Assembly (NCBI RefSeq): GCF_022095675.1
Contig: NZ_JAHYSG010000068.1
Coordinates: 1 to 64,000 of the forward strand
Direction of reading: 5' to 3'
Length of the DNA: 64,000 nt
Origin: Dactylosporangium sp. AC04546
Lineage (GTDB): Bacteria; Actinomycetota; Actinomycetes; Mycobacteriales; Micromonosporaceae
The notes beneath the pieces were generated by a model. The model was given only the letters and a program-made list of their open reading frames with translations. It was not told the origin of the DNA and searched no databases. A program made the translations under genes and the position numbers. Below, in pieces: positions 34,590 to 53,380 of the stretch (the first letter of the stretch is position 1; every line of letters begins with the position of its first letter).

Positions 34590-34661
34590 TGGGGTATGGG
34601 GTAATTGGCAGCCCAACTGATTCTGGTTCAGTTAGTCTAGGTTCGAGTCCTGGTACCCCAG
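34590..34661 (+). tRNA. tRNA-Gln (CTG)
   Basis: A cloverleaf of 72 nt: acceptor TGGGGTA/TACCCCA, anticodon stem ACTGA/TCAGT with loop TTCTGGT giving anticodon CTG, and a T-loop with GTTCGAGTC. Discriminator G; the CCA end is not encoded. Confidence 0.96.
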
Positions 34662-34725: not shown

Positions 34726-34798
34726 GGCCCCGTCGTCTAGCGGCCCAGGACGCCGCCCTCTCAAGGCGGTAGCGCCGGTTCGAATCCGGTCGGGGCTA
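34726..34798 (+). tRNA. tRNA-Glu (CTC)
   Basis: Acceptor GGCCCCG pairs with CGGGGCT including a G1-U72 wobble, anticodon stem CCGCC/GGCGG with loop CTCTCAA giving CTC, T-arm GCCGGTTCGAATCCGGT. Discriminator A and CCA is encoded (to 34801). Likely co-transcribed with tRNA-Gln 64 bp upstream. Confidence 0.96.
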
Positions 34799-41871: not shown

Positions 41872-41923
41872 GTCGGTTCCTCTTGACAAGCCTGTTGGCG
41901 GGTGAGACCGTCCGGTCATCCTG

Positions 41924-41935
41924 TTGAACGTTCAA
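41924..41935. promoter_or_regulatory. LacI-type operator O1
   Basis: TTGAACGTTCAA, a perfect 12-bp palindrome with central CG typical of LacI-family operators, in the divergent promoter region between the glycosidase and lacI genes. An identical copy lies 35 bp away. Confidence 0.85.
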
Positions 41936-41958
41936 AAGGGCTAATGCCACCGCACGAT

Positions 41959-41970
41959 TTGAACGTTCAA
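41959..41970. promoter_or_regulatory. LacI-type operator O2
   Basis: Second exact TTGAACGTTCAA, centre-to-centre 35 bp from the first and 30 bp before the lacI start codon. Two identical sites allow control of both divergent transcription units. Confidence 0.85.
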
Positions 41971-42000
41971 CTCGGCACCTTACGGCATTTGGGAGGGAAT

Positions 42001-43029
42001 GTGCACCCGCCGACCGTCGAGGACGTGGCACGGGCCGCCGGGGTCTCCCGGCAGACCGTCTCCAACGTTCTCAACGCGCCCGAGCGCGTGCGCCCCGAGA
42101 CGCGGCTGCGCGTCGAGGCGGCCATCGACCAGCTCGGGTACCGGCCCAACCGGGTCGCGCAGTCGCTGCGTGCGTCCACCTCTCGCATGATCGGCTATCG
42201 CATCGAGCCGATGCACCCGCAGTCCCTCGCCAGCATCCACGACCGGTTCCTGCACGCGCTGGCCGAGGCCGGCCGGGCGGCGGACCACCACCTGCTGCTG
42301 TTCACCGCCAACGACCCCGAGGACGAGGTCGCCAACGTCCAGGCCCTGCACCGGGCCGGCGCGATCGACGGCGTCGTCCTCTACGGCATCTCGACCGACG
42401 ACCCGCGCCCGCCCGGGCTGCGCCAGCTGCGCATCCCGTTCGCCGCGTTCGGCCGCACAGGGGCCGACTCGGCCCACCCGTGGGTCGACATCGACAACGC
42501 CGCCGGCACCGCCGCCGCCGTCGAGCACCTGGTGACCCGCGGGCACCAGCGGATCGCGTTCGTCGGCTACCCCGAGGGCGCGGCCGTCGGCGACCGGCGG
42601 GCCGATGGCTGGCGCACCGCGCTCGACAAGCACGGCCTGCTCGACGGCTCCCGCCACCTCGACCTGCGGGGCGAGGACTCGCTCGCCACCGGGGCCCGCC
42701 TCGGCGAGGCCCTCCTGCAGCACCACACCCCACCCACCGCCGTCGTCGCCGCCACCGACACGCTCGCCGCGGGGGTGCTGCGCGTCGTGCAGCGCCGCGG
42801 CGCGCGCCTCGCGGTGGTCGGCTTCGACGACACCCCGACGGCCGCCGCGCTCGACCTGTCGAGCGTCCGCCAGCCCATCGAGGCCGTAGGGCACGCCATG
42901 ATCCGGGCTCTGCTCGCCTATTCGCCCGACCGGCCGGGGCCTTCGGCTCCCGACCCACATGGTGCTGAACCCACCAGCCAACTGCTGACGCCCGAACTGA
43001 TCGTCCGGGCCAGCAGCGCACTGCACTGA
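42001..43029 (+). CDS. LacI-family transcriptional regulator
   Basis: A 342-residue regulator from GTG 42001 (GGGAGGG upstream). The helix-turn-helix is TVEDVARAAGVSRQTVSNVLN and the hinge helix region follows (RPNRVAQSLRAST). The rest is a periplasmic-binding-protein-like effector domain (VDGVVLYGISTDD, HLVTRGHQRIAFVGYPEG, VVAATDTLAAGVLR). It almost surely binds the two TTGAACGTTCAA sites just upstream and represses itself, the ABC genes and the divergent glycosidase; the inducer is unknown but should be an alpha-glucoside or related sugar. Confidence 0.93.
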   Translation: MHPPTVEDVARAAGVSRQTVSNVLNAPERVRPETRLRVEAAIDQLGYRPNRVAQSLRASTSRMIGYRIEPMHPQSLASIHDRFLHALAEAGRAADHHLLLFTANDPEDEVANVQALHRAGAIDGVVLYGISTDDPRPPGLRQLRIPFAAFGRTGADSAHPWVDIDNAAGTAAAVEHLVTRGHQRIAFVGYPEGAAVGDRRADGWRTALDKHGLLDGSRHLDLRGEDSLATGARLGEALLQHHTPPTAVVAATDTLAAGVLRVVQRRGARLAVVGFDDTPTAAALDLSSVRQPIEAVGHAMIRALLAYSPDRPGPSAPDPHGAEPTSQLLTPELIVRASSALH

Positions 43030-43058
43030 AACCTCTCCGACCCCCTGGGAGCGACATC

Positions 43059-44282
43059 ATGAAACGGACACCCCGCCTCCTCGCCGCCGCGTTGCTACTG
43101 GTCGGCCTCGGCGCCACAGCCGCCTGCGGCGACGACGGATCCGGCACCGAGGGCACCGACACCGGCGCCAAACTGACGATGTTCGCGTTCTCCTCGTCCC
43201 CGGCCGAGGACGCGGTACTGCGAAAGGCCGTCGAGGACTACAACAAGCTCGGCCGCAACACCGTCGAGCTGAAGGTGCTGCCGGAGTACGACACCGCGCT
43301 CACGACCGCGCTGGCCGGCGGCGAACCGCCGGACGTCTTCTACGTCAACGACAACAAGCTGCCCGACCTGGGCAAGAACGGCGCGCTCGAGCCGATCGGC
43401 GACAAGGTCGAGAACCCGGGCGACTTCTACGACACGCTCAAGCAGTCGTTCACCTACAAGGGGACGTACTACTGCGCGCCGAAGGACTTCTCCACGCTGC
43501 AGTTGGTGTACAACACCGCCGACTTCACCGCCGCCGGCGTCCAGCCGCCCAAGACCTGGGACGAGCTGGCCGCCGCCGCGAAGGCGCTGACCAAGCCGGG
43601 TCACCCCGGGCTGGTGTTCGGTCCCGAGTTCTACCGCTGGGGCGTGTTCATGGCGCAGGCCGGCGCGTGGCCGACCAACGACGACATCACCAAGATGACG
43701 ATGGACACGCCCGAGATGAAGGCGGCCCTGCAGTACGTGACCGACAACCACAAGAACGGGAACTTCGGCACGCCGGCGTCGGTCGGCGCCGGATGGGGCG
43801 GCGAGGCGTTCGGCAAGGGCCTGACGTCGATGACCATCGAGGGCAACTGGATCGTCGGGGCAATGAAGAACGACTTCCCCAACGTGAAGTACGCGGTCGC
43901 CGAGCTGCCGGCCGGCCCGAAGGGCAAGGGCACGATGTCGTTCTCGGTCTGCTACGGCGTGGCCAAGGCGTCGAAGAACAAGGCCGCCGCGACCGACTTC
44001 GTCAAGTGGCTCACCTCGCCCGACGAGCAGTTCGCGGTCACCAAGGAGTTCCCGGTGATGCCGTCGCGCAAGTCGCTGGCCGACAAGTGGCTGGCCGACA
44101 AGCCGGAGCTCAAGGCGTTCGTCGCCGGCGGTGACTACGCGAAGAAGTCGGTGTTCGTGCCCGGCTTCTCGACCGCGATCGACACGTTCAACGACGGCAT
44201 CCAGGGCCTGGCCAAGGGCAACAAGCAGGTGGACGAGGTCGTCTCCAGCACCCAGAAGGCCGGGACCGACATCCTCGGCTGA
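43059..44282 (+). CDS. Sugar ABC transporter substrate-binding lipoprotein
   Basis: A 407-residue solute-binding protein. The signal peptide ends in the lipobox TAAC (Cys23). The mature protein is a CUT1/extracellular-binding-family-1 fold: LTMFAFSSSPAEDAVLRKAVEDYNK, GEPPDVFYVNDNKLPDL, PKTWDELAAAAKALT, GKGTMSFSVCYGVAKASKNKAAATDFVKWL. It is 29 bp after lacI and precedes two permeases, so it delivers an oligosaccharide. A stable hairpin follows the gene. Confidence 0.93.
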   Translation: MKRTPRLLAAALLLVGLGATAACGDDGSGTEGTDTGAKLTMFAFSSSPAEDAVLRKAVEDYNKLGRNTVELKVLPEYDTALTTALAGGEPPDVFYVNDNKLPDLGKNGALEPIGDKVENPGDFYDTLKQSFTYKGTYYCAPKDFSTLQLVYNTADFTAAGVQPPKTWDELAAAAKALTKPGHPGLVFGPEFYRWGVFMAQAGAWPTNDDITKMTMDTPEMKAALQYVTDNHKNGNFGTPASVGAGWGGEAFGKGLTSMTIEGNWIVGAMKNDFPNVKYAVAELPAGPKGKGTMSFSVCYGVAKASKNKAAATDFVKWLTSPDEQFAVTKEFPVMPSRKSLADKWLADKPELKAFVAGGDYAKKSVFVPGFSTAIDTFNDGIQGLAKGNKQVDEVVSSTQKAGTDILG

Positions 44283-44292
44283 CCGTTTGACC

Positions 44293-44325
44293 GGGGCCGC
44301 CGCCTCCCCCCTTGGCGGCGGCCCC
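44293..44325 (+). promoter_or_regulatory. Intercistronic stem-loop between binding-protein and permease genes
   Basis: A perfect 12-bp GC-only stem (44293-44304 with 44314-44325), with a 9-nt loop and no T-run after it. It probably protects the upstream mRNA or partly attenuates, giving more binding protein than permease. Confidence 0.7.
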
Positions 44326-44344
44326 TACTGGAGGTACCCCCGAA

Positions 44345-45403
44345 ATGACCGCCACCGTTGAGGCGCCGCCGGACGCACCCCCCGGCCGCCGCCCGAAGTC
44401 GCGTATCCACGGCCGGCAGGGCCTGGCCGGCTGGCTGTTCGTCACCCCTGCCCTCATCGGGCTGGGCGCGTTCATGGTCGCGCCGATCCTGCTGGCGCTG
44501 TGGGTGTCGTTCCGCGACTGGAGCGGCCTCAACCCGCTCGCCGACTCCACCAACGCCGGCACCGGCAACTACGCCGACCTGCTCACCGACTCCGGCGTCG
44601 TGCGCGGCGACTTCGCCAAGAGCCTGCGCAACAACCTGTACTACGTGCTCGGCGTCGTCCCCGCGCAGACGGTCCTGGCCTTCCTGCTCGCCATTATCGT
44701 CAACTCCCGCCTGCTCAAGGGCCGCACGTTCTTCCGCACCGCGTTCTACTTCCCGTCGGTGACGAGTTCGATCGCGGTCGCCTTCATCTTTGTTTTCCTC
44801 TTCAGTCCCGCGGGCGTGGTCAACACCGTGCTGTCCGCGGTACTGCCGGGAAAGGTCGACCTCGTCTGGCTGGACGACTCGGACGGCCTGATCCACCTGC
44901 TGCTGCGGGCCGTGGGCGTGGACCGGCCGCCGTCCGCCCTGCGCGGCGAGTTCATGGACCTGTCCTGGTGGGACTGGCTGTCCGGGCCGAGCGTCGCGCT
45001 CAGCTCGGTGATGATCCTGGCCACCTGGACCACCACGGGCACGTTCATGCTGATGTTCCTGGCCGGCCTGCAGAACATCCCGGAGGAGCTCGAGGAGGCC
45101 GCGGCGCTCGACGGCGCGTCGGCCCGCCAGCGCTTCTTCACCATCACGCTGCCGCTGCTGAAGCCGACCCTCTTCCTGGTGCTGACGCTGGGCATCATCG
45201 GCACGTGGCAGGTCTTCGACCAGGTGTACGCCATGACGGCCGGCGGCCCGCAGAAGACCACGCTGACGCCCGCCTATCTCGTGTACCGCGAGGGCTTCCA
45301 GAACAGCGCGATGGGCCGCGCGGCGGCGATCGCCTTCGTCGTCTTCGTCATCATCCTGGTCTTCACCGCCGTGCAGCGGCTGGTGCTGCGGAAGGAGCGC
45401 TGA
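44345..45403 (+). CDS. Sugar ABC transporter permease (MalF type)
   Basis: A 352-residue inner-membrane permease with six predicted helices, starting at ATG 44345 behind GGAGG. The EAA loop that docks the ATPase is IPEELEEAAALDGASARQRFFTITLPLLKP. An unusually long extracytoplasmic loop after helix three (PGKVDLVWLDDSDGLIHLLL... to about residue 215) is rich in charged and tryptophan residues. The partner permease follows after one base. Confidence 0.92.
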   Translation: MTATVEAPPDAPPGRRPKSRIHGRQGLAGWLFVTPALIGLGAFMVAPILLALWVSFRDWSGLNPLADSTNAGTGNYADLLTDSGVVRGDFAKSLRNNLYYVLGVVPAQTVLAFLLAIIVNSRLLKGRTFFRTAFYFPSVTSSIAVAFIFVFLFSPAGVVNTVLSAVLPGKVDLVWLDDSDGLIHLLLRAVGVDRPPSALRGEFMDLSWWDWLSGPSVALSSVMILATWTTTGTFMLMFLAGLQNIPEELEEAAALDGASARQRFFTITLPLLKPTLFLVLTLGIIGTWQVFDQVYAMTAGGPQKTTLTPAYLVYREGFQNSAMGRAAAIAFVVFVIILVFTAVQRLVLRKER

Positions 45404-45404
45404 C

Positions 45405-46229
45405 ATGCGGCGCGCGCTGCGGTACGGCATCCTCATCTTCTTCGCCGTGATCTTCATCTACCCGTTCGTGCTGTCGTTCGCCACCTCGTTCAAGTCCCGC
45501 CCGGAGGTGGCGTCCAGCCCGGTGATCCCGTGGCCGCAGGCGTTCGACACCCGGGCCTGGACCGACGTGCTGGTGCACAGCGACTTTCCCCTGTGGACGT
45601 TCAACTCGATCCTCGTCACCGTGCTGGCGACGCTGGGCCGGGTGTTCCTGGACTCGCTGGCCGGGTACTCGCTGGCCCGCCTGACCTGGCGCGGCCGGAA
45701 CCTGGTGTTCGCGGGCGTGGTCTCGGTCCTCGCGGTCCCCCCGATCGTCCTGACCGTCCCGCGCTTCCTGGTGTTGAAGGAGATGAGCCTCCTCAACTCG
45801 TACACGGGCCTGATCCTGCCGCTGGCGGTGGACGCGATGGGCATCTTCCTGATGCGCCAGTTCTTCGCCGAGCTGCCACGGGAGCTGGAGGAGGCGGCCC
45901 GCATCGACGGTGCGTCGATCTTCCAGGCCTACTGGCACGTGGTACTGCCACTGGCCCGCCCGGCCCTGCTGACCCTCACGATCCTGTCGTTCCAGGGCGT
46001 GTGGAACGAGTTCCTGATGCCCCTGATCGTCGTCCGGGCCAGCCCGGAGCACTGGACGCTCCCGTTCGGCCTGTCCACGCTGGGCCGAGGCGGCGCCGGC
46101 GGCCAGTCCTACGACTACCCGGTGATGATGGCGGGATCGATCCTGACCATCATCCCGGTGGCGATCGTCTTCATCATCTTCCAGCGCTTCTTCGTGCGGG
46201 GGGTGGCCCAGACGGGCGTCAAGGGCTGA
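45405..46229 (+). CDS. Sugar ABC transporter permease (MalG type)
   Basis: A 274-residue permease with six helices. The EAA motif is LPRELEEAARIDGASIFQAYWHVVLPLARP, and the characteristic end of MalG-type proteins (IIFQRFFVRGVAQTGVKG) is present. One base separates it from the first permease. No ATP-binding gene follows, so the system presumably uses a shared MsiK-type ATPase encoded elsewhere, as usual in Actinobacteria. Confidence 0.93.
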   Translation: MRRALRYGILIFFAVIFIYPFVLSFATSFKSRPEVASSPVIPWPQAFDTRAWTDVLVHSDFPLWTFNSILVTVLATLGRVFLDSLAGYSLARLTWRGRNLVFAGVVSVLAVPPIVLTVPRFLVLKEMSLLNSYTGLILPLAVDAMGIFLMRQFFAELPRELEEAARIDGASIFQAYWHVVLPLARPALLTLTILSFQGVWNEFLMPLIVVRASPEHWTLPFGLSTLGRGGAGGQSYDYPVMMAGSILTIIPVAIVFIIFQRFFVRGVAQTGVKG

Positions 46230-46235
46230 CCGGGG

Positions 46236-46958
46236 TCAGGCGCCGATGACGTTCACCGCCCGTGCCACCACCAGAAGGACCGTCACCAGCGACGTCAGGG
46301 CCTCGCTCAGCATCAGGAGCTTGGCCCACGTCGACATCGGCATGGTGTCCGTGGGGCTGAAGGCGGTGGCGTTGGTGAACGACACGTACAGGTAGTCCAC
46401 GAACGTCGGCTCCCAGTCCCGGTCGGCAAGCTCCGGAACCTGCATCTGGGTGAACAGGAAGTCCGGGTGCGGCGTCCGGCCCTCGGCGCGGGCCGCCGGG
46501 CCGCCGCGGTCGGCCTCCCAGAACCACAGGGCGAAGACGATGACGTTCGTCAGCCAGATCGCGCCGCCCCACAGCAGCAGGTGCTCCGGGGCGAGGCCAC
46601 CGTGGTGGAACAGCGCCCGCACCAGCAGCGCCACCGACCACGCGGTCACCAGGCTGAGCACCGCCACCAGGCCGATGCTCAGCGGGCGCAGAATCCGGGC
46701 CTCGCGGTTGATCCGCAGCGGGTTCACCGCCACCACCGTCACCAGCAGCAGCGACTCCAGCGCGGGCAGCAGCCAGCGCGGTCGTGGGGCCAGGTCCGGC
46801 GGGAGGATCATGTGGATGGCGATCGCCACGGCGATGGCCAGGGCGGCCGGCCAGCGCTGCTCGGCCTCGGTGCGGCGCAACCAGCCGGGCAGCTGCCCCG
46901 GCTTCTTCGGCTGGGGCGGGCCGTTGCCCCGATCCAGCGCGGGCGGTAGGTCGCTCAC
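46236..46958 (-). CDS. Polytopic membrane protein (DUF1345-like) ending the radical SAM operon
   Basis: A 240-residue membrane protein from GTG 46958, with about five to six hydrophobic helices. The C-terminal block VDYLYVSFTNATAFSPTDTMPMSTWAKLLMLSEALTSL resembles DUF1345 family members, which share a pore-loop-like segment of unknown meaning. Its start overlaps the 86-residue gene by 4 bp (GTGA), so it belongs to the same operon. Function unknown. Confidence 0.75.
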   Translation of the reverse strand: MSDLPPALDRGNGPPQPKKPGQLPGWLRRTEAEQRWPAALAIAVAIAIHMILPPDLAPRPRWLLPALESLLLVTVVAVNPLRINREARILRPLSIGLVAVLSLVTAWSVALLVRALFHHGGLAPEHLLLWGGAIWLTNVIVFALWFWEADRGGPAARAEGRTPHPDFLFTQMQVPELADRDWEPTFVDYLYVSFTNATAFSPTDTMPMSTWAKLLMLSEALTSLVTVLLVVARAVNVIGA

Positions 46959-47215
46959 GCCAGCCAACCGTAGACGTGCCAGCCCACTCCCGCCAGGCCG
47001 GCCACCGCCAGTGCCGCCAGGTAGGTCAGGACCAGACGGGTGTCCCGCAGCACGCACTTCGAGCGGGTCAGACCGCGGCGGCGGGCGCGGAGGTAGCCGG
47101 AGAAGCCCAGCACCGCGAAGCCCAGGACCGCCAGCGGGCCCAGCAGCCAGGCCAGCGCCGCGATCGTCGCGTAGACGCACAGGCGCAGCGGGTCGTAGGG
47201 CTGCGGGTCAGCCAC
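46955..47215 (-). CDS. Small two- to three-helix membrane protein in the radical SAM operon
   Basis: An 86-residue hypothetical protein, GTG 47215 start, with hydrophobic segments at about 13-38 and 60-80 separated by a strongly basic loop (RARRRGLTRSK). It overlaps the radical SAM gene end by 8 bp and the DUF1345-like gene start by 4 bp. No family recognised; context suggests a membrane partner of the radical SAM system. Confidence 0.75.
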   Translation of the reverse strand: MADPQPYDPLRLCVYATIAALAWLLGPLAVLGFAVLGFSGYLRARRRGLTRSKCVLRDTRLVLTYLAALAVAGLAGVGWHVYGWLA

Positions 47216-48758
47216 GGCGCGGGAGGCGCTGGATCGACAGCAGGGGCCACGCCTGAACCGCGCAGAACGGCGCGCACTGGTCCTGCGACGAGGCGCTGCG
47301 GGTGGCCACGTGGACGCAGCACTGCAGGAGCCGCTCCTCGATCATCGTGTGCATGTCCATGAACGGCTTCACCGTGATGCGCTTGACCCGCTCGCCGAGC
47401 ATCTTGCGCAGCCGGTTGCGGCCGCCCGGCAGCGACGACGACACGAGCGTGGTCAGGGTCGAGATGCCGAGGTCGCAGTTCTCGCAGATGTCCCGCCACA
47501 GGTTGCCGACGTCGGGGTGGGACAGCGACGACTGCTCCGACAGCAGCCCGAGCAGCGAGTCCTTGACCGCGGTGCGCAGGGCCGCGGGCAGCTGGACGTC
47601 GGCGATCCGGTTGGCCACCAGGTCCGGCGCCAGGTCGAGGAACGACAGCAGGCGGTCGTGGCCGATGAGCTTGGTCATCGACTGCCACTGGCCGGCATCG
47701 TCGCGCAGGAGGTAGCCCACCGAGCAGCAGTGCGGGTGCGAGCACGGCAGCGCCGTGAGGTCGCGCCAGGTGACCAGGTCGCCGGTCTGCGGGCCGAGCC
47801 GGGCCAGCACGCCGGTGTGGGTCAGCCGGTCCACCGGGTCGATCGGGCCCGAACGACCCGAACCGAACTGCGGCTGCAGCGAGACCCCGCCGACGTAGGG
47901 CGTGTCGAGCGCCCGCTTCACGACCGCGCCGATCTCGTCGTCGTTGACGCCGAGCGCGCAGGTCATGGTGAGGGTGGTGAAGATGCCGCGGGCGGAGAGC
48001 CGGTCGATCGCCTGCTCCTTGAGCCGGCGCAGGTCGGCGCCGCGGTGGTGCCGGGAGGCGCGCTCGGTCACGCCGTCGTACTGGAGGTACACCTCCACCC
48101 GCTCCCGGTGCGCCGTGAGGAGGTCGAGCAGCGCGTCGTCGCGGGCGATCCGCACGCCGTTGGTGTTGACCAGGATCCGCACCACGTTGCGCTCCGAGAC
48201 CTCGCGCAGGAGCTCCGGGAGGTGGGGGTACAGCGTGGGCTCGCCGCCGGAGAGCATCAGCACGTCGATGCGGCCGTTCTCCCGGGACAGCTTGGTGTCG
48301 ACGCTCGCCAGCACGTCGGCCAGCGGTACGACGCCTTCGATGGCCGGAGACGAGTCCGTGAAGCAGGTGGGGCACTTCAGGTTGCAGCTGTCGGTCAGGT
48401 CGGCCAGCAGGATGCAGGTGTGCTGCGTCTGCATCTCCGGCAGCCCGTCAAGATACGCCGACGGGACCGGGGCGAAGTTGCCGGCCAGGTCCGGCACGTG
48501 CGTCTTGGTGGGCGCGGTCCACTGCTCGAGGTACCGCAGAATCTCCGGCTCCTCGTCGTAGAGGGTCCGCACGAGCCCGTGGCCGGGGCAGCCGCGCTCG
48601 AGCCAGATCCGCCCGTCGCGCTCGGCGAGCCAGCCCGACAGCCGCTGGACCGTCTCCAGTGGACGGTCCGGCCGTTCGTCGTGGCAGTGCGGGCAGAAGG
48701 CGTTGACGTAGCGGTGGATGCGGTCCCCGCGCAGGGGCATGCCCGTGTCGGTGCTCAT
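47208..48758 (-). CDS. Radical SAM protein of the MJ0619/tetraether-lipid-synthase-like family
   Basis: A 516-residue multi-cluster radical SAM protein. The SAM-cluster motif is C125NLKC129PTC132, followed by GGEPT (171-175). An N-terminal region has CPHC (22-25) and CPGHG (57-61), and the C-terminal half has PCSHPHCC (338-345), CENC (425-428) and CCVHVATRSASSQDQCAPFC (480-499). This arrangement is that of MJ0619-type proteins, which bind several [4Fe-4S] clusters plus a rubredoxin-like iron; the archaeal member Tes joins lipid alkyl chains. It is coupled (ATGA) to a small membrane protein gene upstream. A lipid-modifying role is inferred. Confidence 0.85.
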   Translation of the reverse strand: MSTDTGMPLRGDRIHRYVNAFCPHCHDERPDRPLETVQRLSGWLAERDGRIWLERGCPGHGLVRTLYDEEPEILRYLEQWTAPTKTHVPDLAGNFAPVPSAYLDGLPEMQTQHTCILLADLTDSCNLKCPTCFTDSSPAIEGVVPLADVLASVDTKLSRENGRIDVLMLSGGEPTLYPHLPELLREVSERNVVRILVNTNGVRIARDDALLDLLTAHRERVEVYLQYDGVTERASRHHRGADLRRLKEQAIDRLSARGIFTTLTMTCALGVNDDEIGAVVKRALDTPYVGGVSLQPQFGSGRSGPIDPVDRLTHTGVLARLGPQTGDLVTWRDLTALPCSHPHCCSVGYLLRDDAGQWQSMTKLIGHDRLLSFLDLAPDLVANRIADVQLPAALRTAVKDSLLGLLSEQSSLSHPDVGNLWRDICENCDLGISTLTTLVSSSLPGGRNRLRKMLGERVKRITVKPFMDMHTMIEERLLQCCVHVATRSASSQDQCAPFCAVQAWPLLSIQRLPRRG

Positions 48759-49138
48759 AGCGTTCCCGTCTGGCTGTTGACGATGGCGATGCAGACGCCG
48801 ATCCCGGCGATCGGGAAGACCAGCACGCTCACCGCCCAGCCGATGATGAGGCCGAGGCCGATCCCGCGGTCCTTCTGGACGATCCAGATGATGCCGAAGG
48901 TCAGGCAGGCGAGGAAGAGCAGGATCTGCAGCAGGATCTCGGCGTAGACCCCGAACAGGGCGTTCTCGCTGTTGTCGGACATGGCGAAGAGGAACGTGAT
49001 CAGCACGCCGAGCCCGATCACCAGGACCTGGCCGAGCGCGGCCAGGCCGATGCCGGCGAACACCTTCCGGCCGCGGATCGGCCGCTCTGGGCCGGACGGC
49101 GGCGGAGGCGGCGGTGGCGGGACCGTCCACTCGTTCAT
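48755..49138 (-). CDS. Small proline-rich multi-helix membrane protein
   Basis: A 127-residue protein. It begins MNEWTVPPPPPPPPSG, a polyproline cytoplasmic head, then has three to four hydrophobic helices resembling DUF4190-like proteins (ALGQVLVIGLGVLITFLF, LLQILLFLACLTFGIIWIV, GWAVSVLVFPIAGIGVCIAIV). ATG 49138 has GGAGGACGC directly upstream. Its stop overlaps the radical SAM start by 4 bp. Function unknown; conserved position suggests a membrane scaffold for the operon. Confidence 0.8.
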   Translation of the reverse strand: MNEWTVPPPPPPPPSGPERPIRGRKVFAGIGLAALGQVLVIGLGVLITFLFAMSDNSENALFGVYAEILLQILLFLACLTFGIIWIVQKDRGIGLGLIIGWAVSVLVFPIAGIGVCIAIVNSQTGTL

Positions 49139-49220
49139 GCGTCCTCCGCTCCGCTCCGGCCGCCTGAACCCCACCCTGAGCCCACGATGAGTGGCCTCCT
49201 CCGCTTCGCTCCGGAACCCC

Positions 49221-49985
49221 TCATGTCGTGACACCTTCCGCGCGTCGGGAGCGCCAGGCCAGCCGGGCCGCGAGCAGCGGCAGGCAGGCCAGCAGGAACA
49301 ACTGCGAGCGGGTCAGGCCCACCCACACGACCTCGTTGCCGCGGACGAACTCGACCCCGAACCGGAACGCGGCGTAGCCGGCGAGGTACAGCGTGAACAG
49401 GCGGCCCGGCGTGGTGATCCGCTTGCGCAGTGCGAGCAGCGCGGCGAACGCGGCCGCGTGAAAGAGGATCTCGTAGGCGAATGACGGATGCAGGGGTACA
49501 CCGGCCGGAACATGCATCGCGGCGGCCTGCTCCGCGTCCAGCGTCACGCCCCAGGGCAGTCCCGTGGGTGTGCCCGGCGGCTCGGCGAAGAAGCAGCCCA
49601 GCCGCCCCACCGCCATGCCGAGCGCGACCGCCGGGGCGAAGAGATCGCCGGTCTTGTGCGGGTAGCCGGCGAGCCGCTTCGCCAGGAGCGCGCCCACGTA
49701 GGCGCCGACGAGGCCGGACAGGATGCTGCGGTTGCCGTACGCCCACTGCTCGAGCAGCGACGCGTTGTCCCGCGGGTCGAGGTGCTGCGCCCACGTGCCG
49801 AGCCGGGCGAAGAGCGCGCCGCCGGCGAGCGCGCCGGCCAGCACGTACCAGAGCCGTTCGTCCTGCGCCTGCCGCCGGCGGACCTCCCACAGGAAGACCA
49901 GGGCGGCGACCCCGATGCCAAGGGCCACGAACACGTCGTGGGTCAGGATCGCCACCGGACCGAACCGAGCGATCACCGGGTGCAC
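49221..49985 (-). CDS. Lgt-like (prolipoprotein diacylglyceryl transferase family) paralogue
   Basis: A 254-residue polytopic membrane protein with the Lgt architecture: DLFAPAVALGMAVGRLGCFFAEPPGTPTGLPWGV corresponds to the GRxGNF-N-E...PTxLPWGV region, and VPLHPSFAYE to the HPxQLYE motif. The catalytic His of the HGG loop (here GNRSILSG) and the Asn of GNFIN (here GCFFA) are not conserved, so it is unlikely to be the lipoprotein-modifying Lgt. Start GTG 49985. It is the first gene of the radical SAM operon and divergent from the EEP gene. Confidence 0.8.
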   Translation of the reverse strand: MHPVIARFGPVAILTHDVFVALGIGVAALVFLWEVRRRQAQDERLWYVLAGALAGGALFARLGTWAQHLDPRDNASLLEQWAYGNRSILSGLVGAYVGALLAKRLAGYPHKTGDLFAPAVALGMAVGRLGCFFAEPPGTPTGLPWGVTLDAEQAAAMHVPAGVPLHPSFAYEILFHAAAFAALLALRKRITTPGRLFTLYLAGYAAFRFGVEFVRGNEVVWVGLTRSQLFLLACLPLLAARLAWRSRRAEGVTT

Positions 49986-51778: not shown

Positions 51779-53380
51779 TCAGACGCGCACCTGGTGCGCG
51801 ATGCCGTAGCTGAGCGCGTCGACGAGCGCCTGCCAGCTCGCCTCCACCACGTTCTCGTGGACGCCGACGGTGGTCCAGTCCTCGCCGGCCGACCGGGTCT
51901 CGACCAGCACCCGCGTGATCGCGCCGGTGCCGTGGCTGCCCTCCAGGATGCGGACCTTGTAGTCGGCCAGCTCGAACCGGGTCAGCTCAGGGTAGTGCCG
52001 GGCCAGCGCGACCCGCAGCGCCTCGTCGAGGGCGTTGACGGGGCCGTTGCCCTCGGCGGTGGCGATCACGCGCTCGCCGCGCACGCGGACCTTCACGGTG
52101 GCCTCGGAGACGACCGCGCCGTCCTCGCGGTGTTCGACGATCACGCGGTACGACTCCAGGGCGAACGGCCGGGGCAGCGCGCCCTCGGCGAGCTCGGAGC
52201 GCGCCAGCAGCTCGAAGGAGGCGTCGGCGGCCTCGAACGACCAGCCGCGGGCCTCCAGCTCCTTGACCCGGTTGGTGACCCGGGTGAGCGCCTCCGGATG
52301 GCCGGCCAGGTCGACGCCGAGCTCGCGTGCCTTGAGCTCGATGCTGGCCCGGCCGGCCATCTCGGTGACCAGGATCCGCATGTCGTTGCCCACGACGACC
52401 GGGTCGATGTGGTTGTAGAGCACGGGATCCACTTTGATCGCGCTCGCGTGCAGGCCCGCCTTGTGAGCGAACGCTGACGACCCGACGTAGGCCTGGTGGG
52501 TGTCGGGTGCGATGTTGGCGATCTCGGCGATGGAGTGCGAGACGCGCACCATCTGCTCGACGCAGCCGTCCGGTAGGACGGGCATACCGAGCTTGAGCTG
52601 AAGGTTGCCGACGACGGCGAAGAGGTCGGCGTTGCCGGGGCGCTCGCCGTAGCCGTTCGCGGTGCACTGGAAGTGCGGCACGCCGGCCTCGACGGCGGCG
52701 ACGGTGTTGGCGACGGCGCAGGACGTGTCGTTCTGGCAGTGGATGCCGAGCCGGGCGACGGCCTCCTCGGGCGTCACGCCGAGCGCCACCGCGAGGCGCT
52801 CGCGGACCTCGCCGACCGTGCGGGTGATCAGCGACGGCAGCATCCCGCCGTTCGTGTCGCACATGACGGCGGCCTCGGCGCCCGCCTCCAGGGCGGCCAG
52901 GGCGACGCTCGTCGTGTACTGCGGGTCGAAGCGGTACCCGTCGAAGAAGTGCTCGCAGTCGAGGAAGACGCGGCGGCCCTCGCTCACGAAGTACGCCACC
53001 GTGTCGCGGACCATCGCGAGGTTCTCCTCGGCGGTCGTGCGCAGCGCCCGCTCGACGTGGCGCAGGTCGGACTTCGCGACCAGGGTCACGGCCGGCGTCT
53101 CGGCCTCGAGCAGCGCGCGGACCTGCGGGTCGTCCTGCACCCGGACGCCGGCCTTGCGGGTCGCGCCGAACGCGACGAAGACGGCGTGTCTCAGGTTGAG
53201 CTCGGTGCGCGCCCGGCGGAAGAACTCGGTGTCCTTCGGCATGGCCCCCGGCCACCCGCCCTCGATGAACCCGACGCCGAACTCGTCCAGCAGCCGCGCG
53301 ACGGCCAGCTTGTCGACCACCGAGTAGCTGATCGCCTCACGCTGAGCCCCATCGCGCAGCGTCGTGTCGTACACCTGCAT
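51779..53380 (-). CDS. cimA: Citramalate synthase (CimA family)
   Basis: A 533-residue LeuA/CimA-family enzyme: catalytic start YDTTLRDGAQREAISYSVVDK (DTTLRDG), GIHCQNDTSCAVANTVAAVEAG metal site, CTANGYGERPGNADL, and a C-terminal LeuA allosteric domain (VEHREDGAVVSEATVKVRV ... VLVETRSAGEDWTTVGVHEN). The overall length and AISYSVVDKLAVARLLDEFG fit citramalate synthase, which makes isoleucine precursors from pyruvate and acetyl-CoA. ATG 53380 has AGAGGAG upstream. An attenuator with a Leu-Ile-Ile leader precedes it. Confidence 0.9.
   Translation of the reverse strand: MQVYDTTLRDGAQREAISYSVVDKLAVARLLDEFGVGFIEGGWPGAMPKDTEFFRRARTELNLRHAVFVAFGATRKAGVRVQDDPQVRALLEAETPAVTLVAKSDLRHVERALRTTAEENLAMVRDTVAYFVSEGRRVFLDCEHFFDGYRFDPQYTTSVALAALEAGAEAAVMCDTNGGMLPSLITRTVGEVRERLAVALGVTPEEAVARLGIHCQNDTSCAVANTVAAVEAGVPHFQCTANGYGERPGNADLFAVVGNLQLKLGMPVLPDGCVEQMVRVSHSIAEIANIAPDTHQAYVGSSAFAHKAGLHASAIKVDPVLYNHIDPVVVGNDMRILVTEMAGRASIELKARELGVDLAGHPEALTRVTNRVKELEARGWSFEAADASFELLARSELAEGALPRPFALESYRVIVEHREDGAVVSEATVKVRVRGERVIATAEGNGPVNALDEALRVALARHYPELTRFELADYKVRILEGSHGTGAITRVLVETRSAGEDWTTVGVHENVVEASWQALVDALSYGIAHQVRV

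Follow-up and report, generated by a model that had tools for sequence, protein, structure and literature searches.

The window analysed here is a stretch of 64,000 nucleotides from Dactylosporangium sp. AC04546 (contig NZ_JAHYSG010000068.1, positions 1 to 64,000), and it carries on its minus strand a gene cassette that pairs a radical S-adenosylmethionine (SAM) protein with a paralogue of Lgt, the lipoprotein diacylglyceryl transferase. The window lies within a 13.0-Mb draft genome, whose listed contamination is 11.5%, compared with 4–10% in six genus mates. Five minus-strand genes follow one another at this locus. Specifically, the Lgt paralogue of 254 amino acids (aa) starts with GTG and is encoded at 49221–49985, a 127-aa small membrane protein with a proline-rich N-terminus and three transmembrane segments at 48755–49138, the 516-aa radical SAM protein at 47208–48758, an 86-aa membrane protein with a GTG start at 46955–47215, and a weakly DUF1345-like membrane protein at 46236–46958. 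The first-pass annotation had placed five genes in this position and order, and their open reading frames (ORFs) were confirmed. The spacing also reads as it had been described: 82 bp separate the Lgt-like gene from the next gene, and overlaps of 4 bp (ATGA), 8 bp, and 4 bp (GTGA) follow. The Lgt-like label is upheld by PF01790 (LGT), which matches at 112 bits against a cut-off of 24.9, while the functional model TIGR00544 gives 77 bits and misses its cut-off of 118.9. Two Pfam models match the radical SAM protein, Radical_SAM (69 bits, cut-off 29.5) and the HMPTM zinc ribbon (40 bits, cut-off 27), and all of the cysteine motifs previously pointed out are present in it (CPHC, CPGHG, CNLKCPTC, PCSHPHCC, CENC, CCVH, and CAPFC). 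The proline-rich and 86-aa proteins have no Pfam match above cut-off. The DUF1345-like label was not sustained, as its Pfam score of 17.1 bits is below the cut-off of 31.8.

Conservation was surveyed in Actinomycetota genomes and loci, with locus counts resting on tblastn and hidden Markov model (HMM) searches. One genome per species was scanned, and 458 stretches with a radical SAM relative were obtained. The best 80 of these, all titled actinobacteria, were kept, which biases the sampled diversity to close relatives. Together with 7 unnamed loci, the 80 named ones give 87 in which the radical SAM gene is complete; two radical SAM fragments (L110 and L111) are outside this number, and some loci are near-duplicates, such as L094 and L095 from one assembly. 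The nearest named locus is that of Dactylosporangium sucinum, whose radical SAM protein is 97% identical. The Lgt-like gene adjoins the radical SAM gene in 79 of the 80 named loci, and the single exception, L060, begins at a contig edge. The prevailing gene order is Lgt-like, radical SAM, 86-aa (65 loci), followed by Lgt-like, radical SAM (8 loci), radical SAM, 86-aa, Lgt-like (6 loci), and radical SAM, 86-aa (1 locus). Five Microbacteriaceae and one metagenome-assembled genome (MAG) account for the order with the Lgt-like gene last. Hence, the linkage between the Lgt-like and radical SAM genes survives reshuffling. With start codons picked by nearest fit, 30 of 84 loci show a 4-bp overlap between the Lgt-like gene and the radical SAM gene, and 35 of 77 show one between the radical SAM and 86-aa genes, which suggests that the cassette genes may be translationally coupled.

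Across the phylum, radical SAM matches at 1e-30 occur in 15 of 296 genomes, nine of which are of the cassette type (E < 1e-100) and six distant. The Lgt-like protein, at an identity of at least 49%, is present in exactly the same nine genomes; some Lgt-like match at 1e-12 exists in 186 of the 296, and among the matches listed, all others are at most 39% identical. The 86-aa protein is found in six genomes, all among the nine, and the three without it come from one genus in the same order. The gene pair put forward by the first-pass annotation therefore does co-occur, in the same 9 of 296 genomes and side by side in nearly all named loci. The proposed five-gene unit stands only in part. Only 2 of 87 loci have the DUF1345-like gene at most 3.5 kb from the radical SAM gene and two more have it farther away, all of them from Dactylosporangium, which rules out the five-gene operon as a conserved unit, and the other four genes are conserved as a cassette. 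We have very high confidence that this four-gene system is real and conserved. Its carriers are soil actinomycetes and some mycobacteria, and it is a patchy trait, since 18 of 150 genomes of the window's family have the radical SAM gene. Plasmid-borne cassettes were found on the mobilizable Mycobacterium avium plasmid pS2b (L158, 7225–10545) and on a plasmid of M. branderi (L159, 7358–10551). In both, two unnamed ORFs separate the Lgt-like gene from the radical SAM gene, and a gene for a transposase is close by.

The two small membrane proteins accompany the pair in most loci. In 81 of 87 loci, the HMM of the proline-rich protein matches on the same strand no more than 3.5 kb from the radical SAM gene, a number that is partly due to construction because the model was seeded from ORFs near that gene; as a control, only two matches in the same loci lie more than 3.5 kb off. 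Three more loci (L034, L040, and L064) contain a divergent match within about 760 bp, and the remaining three (L106, L108, and L109) have no HMM match. Of the 87 loci, 76 have a match to the HMM of the 86-aa protein beside the radical SAM gene, and no match to it occurs elsewhere in these loci. The loci lacking the 86-aa gene and those lacking the proline-rich gene do not overlap, and each of the 87 loci has at least one small protein gene within 3.5 kb or just divergent. Cys13 and Cys54 are among the most conserved positions of the 86-aa protein, being kept by 95% or more of the 78 members aligned, and the proline-rich family ends in a recurrent GxC within the C-terminal motif GxGxxIGxAx(n)GxC. 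These cysteines and the constant presence of a small protein gene would fit a scheme in which the small proteins are the substrates, with the radical SAM enzyme or the Lgt paralogue modifying their conserved cysteines (by a thioether, a cross-link, or a lipid) to yield a modified membrane peptide. However, the 86-aa gene is absent from 11 of 87 loci and the proline-rich gene from three, the radical SAM protein has no SPASM match in Pfam, and its predicted model is folded like a lipid enzyme. We regard this scheme as a long shot. In the most economical reading, that of lipid remodelling at the inner membrane, the two proteins would serve as anchors, chaperones, or substrates.

The radical SAM protein had been likened to MJ0619/Tes, the archaeal tetraether synthase, also termed GDGT-MAS (PDB 7TOL and 7TOM), which joins lipid tails to one another. 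The kinship holds, and the assignment to the Tes clade does not. In a VIA-align comparison covering the Foldseek top 1000, the predicted model of the protein adopts the full-length Tes fold. Shared with Tes are the rubredoxin-type CX2C...CX2H site, the radical SAM cluster, the SAM-contact residues, and three cysteines of the C-terminal domain. The [4Fe-4S]-binding motif CNLKCPTC spans residues 125–132 (48363–48386), and its three cysteines are found in all 88 cassette members. The C-terminal auxiliary cluster domain (47262–47729) keeps the FMD, CC-x-H, and PFC motifs, and Cys344, Cys480, and Cys499, equivalent to C338, C455, and C470 of MjTes, are likewise invariant (88/88). Family membership was tested by the NCBIfam equivalog cut-offs, which are 450 bits for Tes (NF045702) and 490 bits for the radical SAM (seleno)protein TrsS (NF045646); the protein scores 147 and 190 bits, respectively. 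In a radical SAM tree (20, 12, and 6 rows), the cassette proteins (100/100) and archaeal Tes (100/98) form separate groups. In MjTes, the region equivalent to residues 98–110 (48429–48467) holds C73, C77, C80, and H83, the ligands of the N-terminal auxiliary cluster; at these four positions, the 88 cassette members most often have V/I, D/R/Q, P/G, and Q, the last in 88/88. All four ligands are kept in 10/10 archaeal Tes and 6/6 other bacterial relatives. Conversely, the cassette enzyme has cysteines at 115, 339, 345, 428, and 495, where MjTes has none. The cut-offs, the clade, and the ligands together rule out membership in either Tes or TrsS, and the protein belongs to a separate actinobacterial clade of the Tes/MJ0619 superfamily. 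The six distant relatives, which are TrsS/Tes-like and five of which were scored against the profiles, differ from the cassette enzyme in having the N-terminal cluster ligands, and tblastn detected no Lgt-like gene in ~17 kb around them. Three distant TrsS-like relatives (L113, 7082–9561; L114, 8197–10517; L115, 7331–9723) reach 330–355 bits, below the cut-off, and have these ligands as well; immediately after each comes a gene that reads as a methyltransferase and carries KxCCAxxY near its start. One of them is in a 9.7-Mb genome of the same class.

The Lgt alignment comprises 85 cassette proteins, namely the window's and those of 84 loci, three of the 87 extracted proteins having been left out as fragments. 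The cassette paralogue shares with E. coli Lgt (5AZB) the PF01790 family and the HPxxxYE motif; R143, R239, E243, R246, and Y235 (E. coli numbering) are unchanged in 85/85 and D129 in 84. It differs at three positions. His16 (49938–49940) takes the place of Tyr26 (Y26H) in 85/85, Leu89 (49719–49721) that of His103 (H103L) in 84/85, and Arg128-Leu-Gly-Cys131 (49593–49604) corresponds to R143 to N146, with the arginine kept and N146 replaced by cysteine in 85/85 each. According to PMC13251419, E. coli Lgt requires Y26, H103, R143, N146, G154, and R239, with R143 and R239 as the proposed contacts of the phospholipid head group, and alanine at Y26, H103, or N146 fails to restore growth. The same source gives position 103 as Tyr or Trp in Lgt of Firmicutes and Actinobacteria and as Trp, Tyr, or Phe in other Lgt, and position 146 as Cys in distant Lgt proteins. 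The cassette proteins form one clade with 100/100 support. The 21 best non-cassette actinobacterial Lgt-like matches all have N146C and none has His26 or Leu103; hence, among the rows compared, the combination Y26H/H103L/N146C marks the cassette clade. This non-cassette group (L131–L151) often has E151C as well, giving a GCFxNGCCYG-type motif, and position 103 in it is Tyr in 20/21 and Gln in L139.

Because Y26, H103, and N146 are all changed, ordinary lipoprotein anchoring by the paralogue is unlikely. It probably still handles phosphatidylglycerol, judging from the residues it retains, but not the usual acceptor. The LGT family membership could also mean that the paralogue is a lipoprotein diacylglyceryl transferase with a special donor, the radical SAM enzyme modifying the anchor of a subset of lipoproteins. 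On the M. branderi plasmid, two DUF3558-domain genes (L159, 6240–7297) immediately precede the Lgt-like gene, an arrangement that agrees with this and was seen once. The three substitutions, each at a site where alanine abolishes growth rescue in E. coli, argue against it, as do the two further Lgt genes with canonical residues in the genome. Moreover, among the best 25 neighbour clusters, which were not annotated singly, none stood out as a lipoprotein gene shared across families. We therefore find a special-donor lipoprotein transferase quite unlikely. MSMEG_5408, the second Lgt homologue of M. smegmatis, may be part of the same cassette.

The patchy distribution and the plasmid copies, both common for accessory traits, might instead reflect a function unrelated to lipids, for example in cofactor chemistry or phage defence, in which the Lgt paralogue would be a mere membrane scaffold. 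A defence system was rejected, since the PADLOC matches, three viperin models, are confined to the radical SAM core. Viral carriage gave four pattern matches, none of them a relative, and the absence of viral copies and the retention of the Lgt head-group residues also speak against a non-lipid role, which we deem very improbable.

A lipid-related role for the cassette is reasonable, because the gene pair co-occurs and the radical SAM protein is a full-length Tes homologue. We tentatively propose, at somewhat less than an even chance, that the cassette encodes a membrane complex in which the acyl tails of a lipid of the phosphatidylglycerol type are coupled or otherwise rebuilt and the diacylglyceryl unit is handed to an unusual acceptor. 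The radical SAM protein would be located at the inner face of the membrane, held there by the small membrane proteins. The acyl tails of a glycerophospholipid, for example phosphatidylglycerol, would be drawn into a Tes-like pocket, as the fold and residues suggest. A carbon radical made with SAM would be parked on the open C-terminal [4Fe-4S] cluster and then coupled, most likely by formation of a C–C bond between the tails of one lipid or of two. The Lgt paralogue, given the residues kept and lost, would still bind the phosphatidylglycerol head group and would pass the remodelled diacylglyceryl unit not to the lipobox cysteine but to another acceptor. We favour C–C coupling because the whole Tes scaffold and the C-terminal domain are kept and because Met439 is dispensable in MjTes, the M439A variant being robustly active according to PMC9433317.

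Several observations weigh against this proposal. The N-terminal auxiliary cluster ligands are gone in all 88 cassette members. Met439 is replaced by Lys (Lys464 here) and Tyr459 by Val in 88/88, two residues that PMC9433317 describes as completely conserved in 1000 archaeal homologues. The identity to eight archaeal Tes proteins is 23–25%, and the stem branch of the cassette clade is long, at 3.85 changes per site. The common fold does not fix the reaction, as TrsS-like relatives belong to the same superfamily. PF09989, taken as a proxy for Ger, the glycerol ester reductase, has no match in the genome; ether lipids are therefore not indicated, and an ester lipid would be expected. Finally, the titles and abstract beginnings covered by the literature searches contain no report of membrane-spanning lipids in these actinomycetes. 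Given the missing cluster and residues, other radical chemistry has room, and C–C coupling is not certain. The radical SAM enzyme may alter the lipid tail by methylation, sulfur insertion, desaturation, or hydroxylation, and the Lgt paralogue may use or anchor the lipid so altered. This alternative draws on the same losses in 88/88, on TrsS rather than Tes being the nearest NCBIfam profile by score (190 versus 147 bits), and on the gene read as a methyltransferase that follows the TrsS-like relatives L113–L115. The retained C-terminal domain with its three motifs and the activity of M439A MjTes count on the other side, and we judge such a tail change unlikely, if still a serious contender.

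The surroundings of the cassette vary. Among the best 25 clusters of the recurrent-neighbour survey, several of which are spurious frames, other recurrent neighbours are mostly confined to one genus or family. A gene of AMP-binding ligase type was considered as a cassette part and rejected, as most loci are without one. In some Mycobacterium loci it precedes the Lgt-like gene at a distance of 0.4–4 kb, in two Nocardioidaceae it is more than 3.5 kb away, and a different one (26% identity) lies beside the Lgt-like gene in L108 and L109. The coordinates of these AMP-binding acyl-CoA ligase-type genes are 6266–8197 in L041, about 5158–6630 in L108, and 10903–12744 in L109. In the window, the plus strand at 41902–46229 contains ABC transporter-type genes (a binding protein and two permeases, by reading) and a LacI-like regulator, and this block ends 6 bp from the DUF1345-like gene, the last co-directional gene on the cassette side. 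Upstream of the cassette and on the same strand, a gene read as citramalate/isopropylmalate synthase-like occupies 51779–53380, and a similar stretch is found near the cassette in several Micromonosporaceae loci. Two tRNA genes (Rfam) are located at 34590–34661 and 34726–34798.

Literature searches of open-licence papers returned no description of the cassette and, in a body of literature from which subscription papers are largely missing, no paper that links the Lgt paralogue with this radical SAM family; PMC8939145, considered as such a paper, is unrelated. Related papers report bacterial Tes homologues proposed for branched glycerol dialkyl glycerol tetraethers (GDGTs) (PMC8941075), uncharacterised bacterial GDGT-MAS homologues (PMC9433317), and homologues of Mss, the bacterial membrane-spanning lipid synthase, in 17 of 146 Actinobacteriota MAGs from the Black Sea (PMC11868695). 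Mss is said in PMC13274423 to have the Tes architecture. The screens of PMC11868695 and PMC13274423 applied a threshold of at least 30% identity. The published screens may have missed the cassette enzyme because its identity to archaeal Tes is below this threshold.

In sum, the cassette combines a radical SAM enzyme of the Tes superfamily with an altered Lgt that is its constant partner. Only archaea and some groups of bacteria are known to couple unactivated lipid tails, a rare chemistry, and a compact, conserved cassette in culturable actinomycetes offers a direct route to ask for coupled lipids or for new lipid-anchor chemistry. It also provides a candidate function for Lgt paralogues with altered sites and for the two families of small membrane proteins that no Pfam model matches above cut-off. 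A bolder and rather doubtful extension is that aerobic actinomycetes, including some mycobacteria, make C–C coupled (macrocyclic or membrane-spanning) ester glycerolipids through their own clade of Tes-superfamily enzymes, with the Y26H/H103L/N146C Lgt paralogue transferring the coupled diacylglyceryl unit to a new acceptor that is not a lipoprotein. If true, this would explain the second lgt of M. smegmatis, a gene so far unassigned, and the cassette would be, to our knowledge, the first for lipid coupling with a head-group transferase of its own. The cassette points to an undescribed route of bacterial membrane lipid remodelling.

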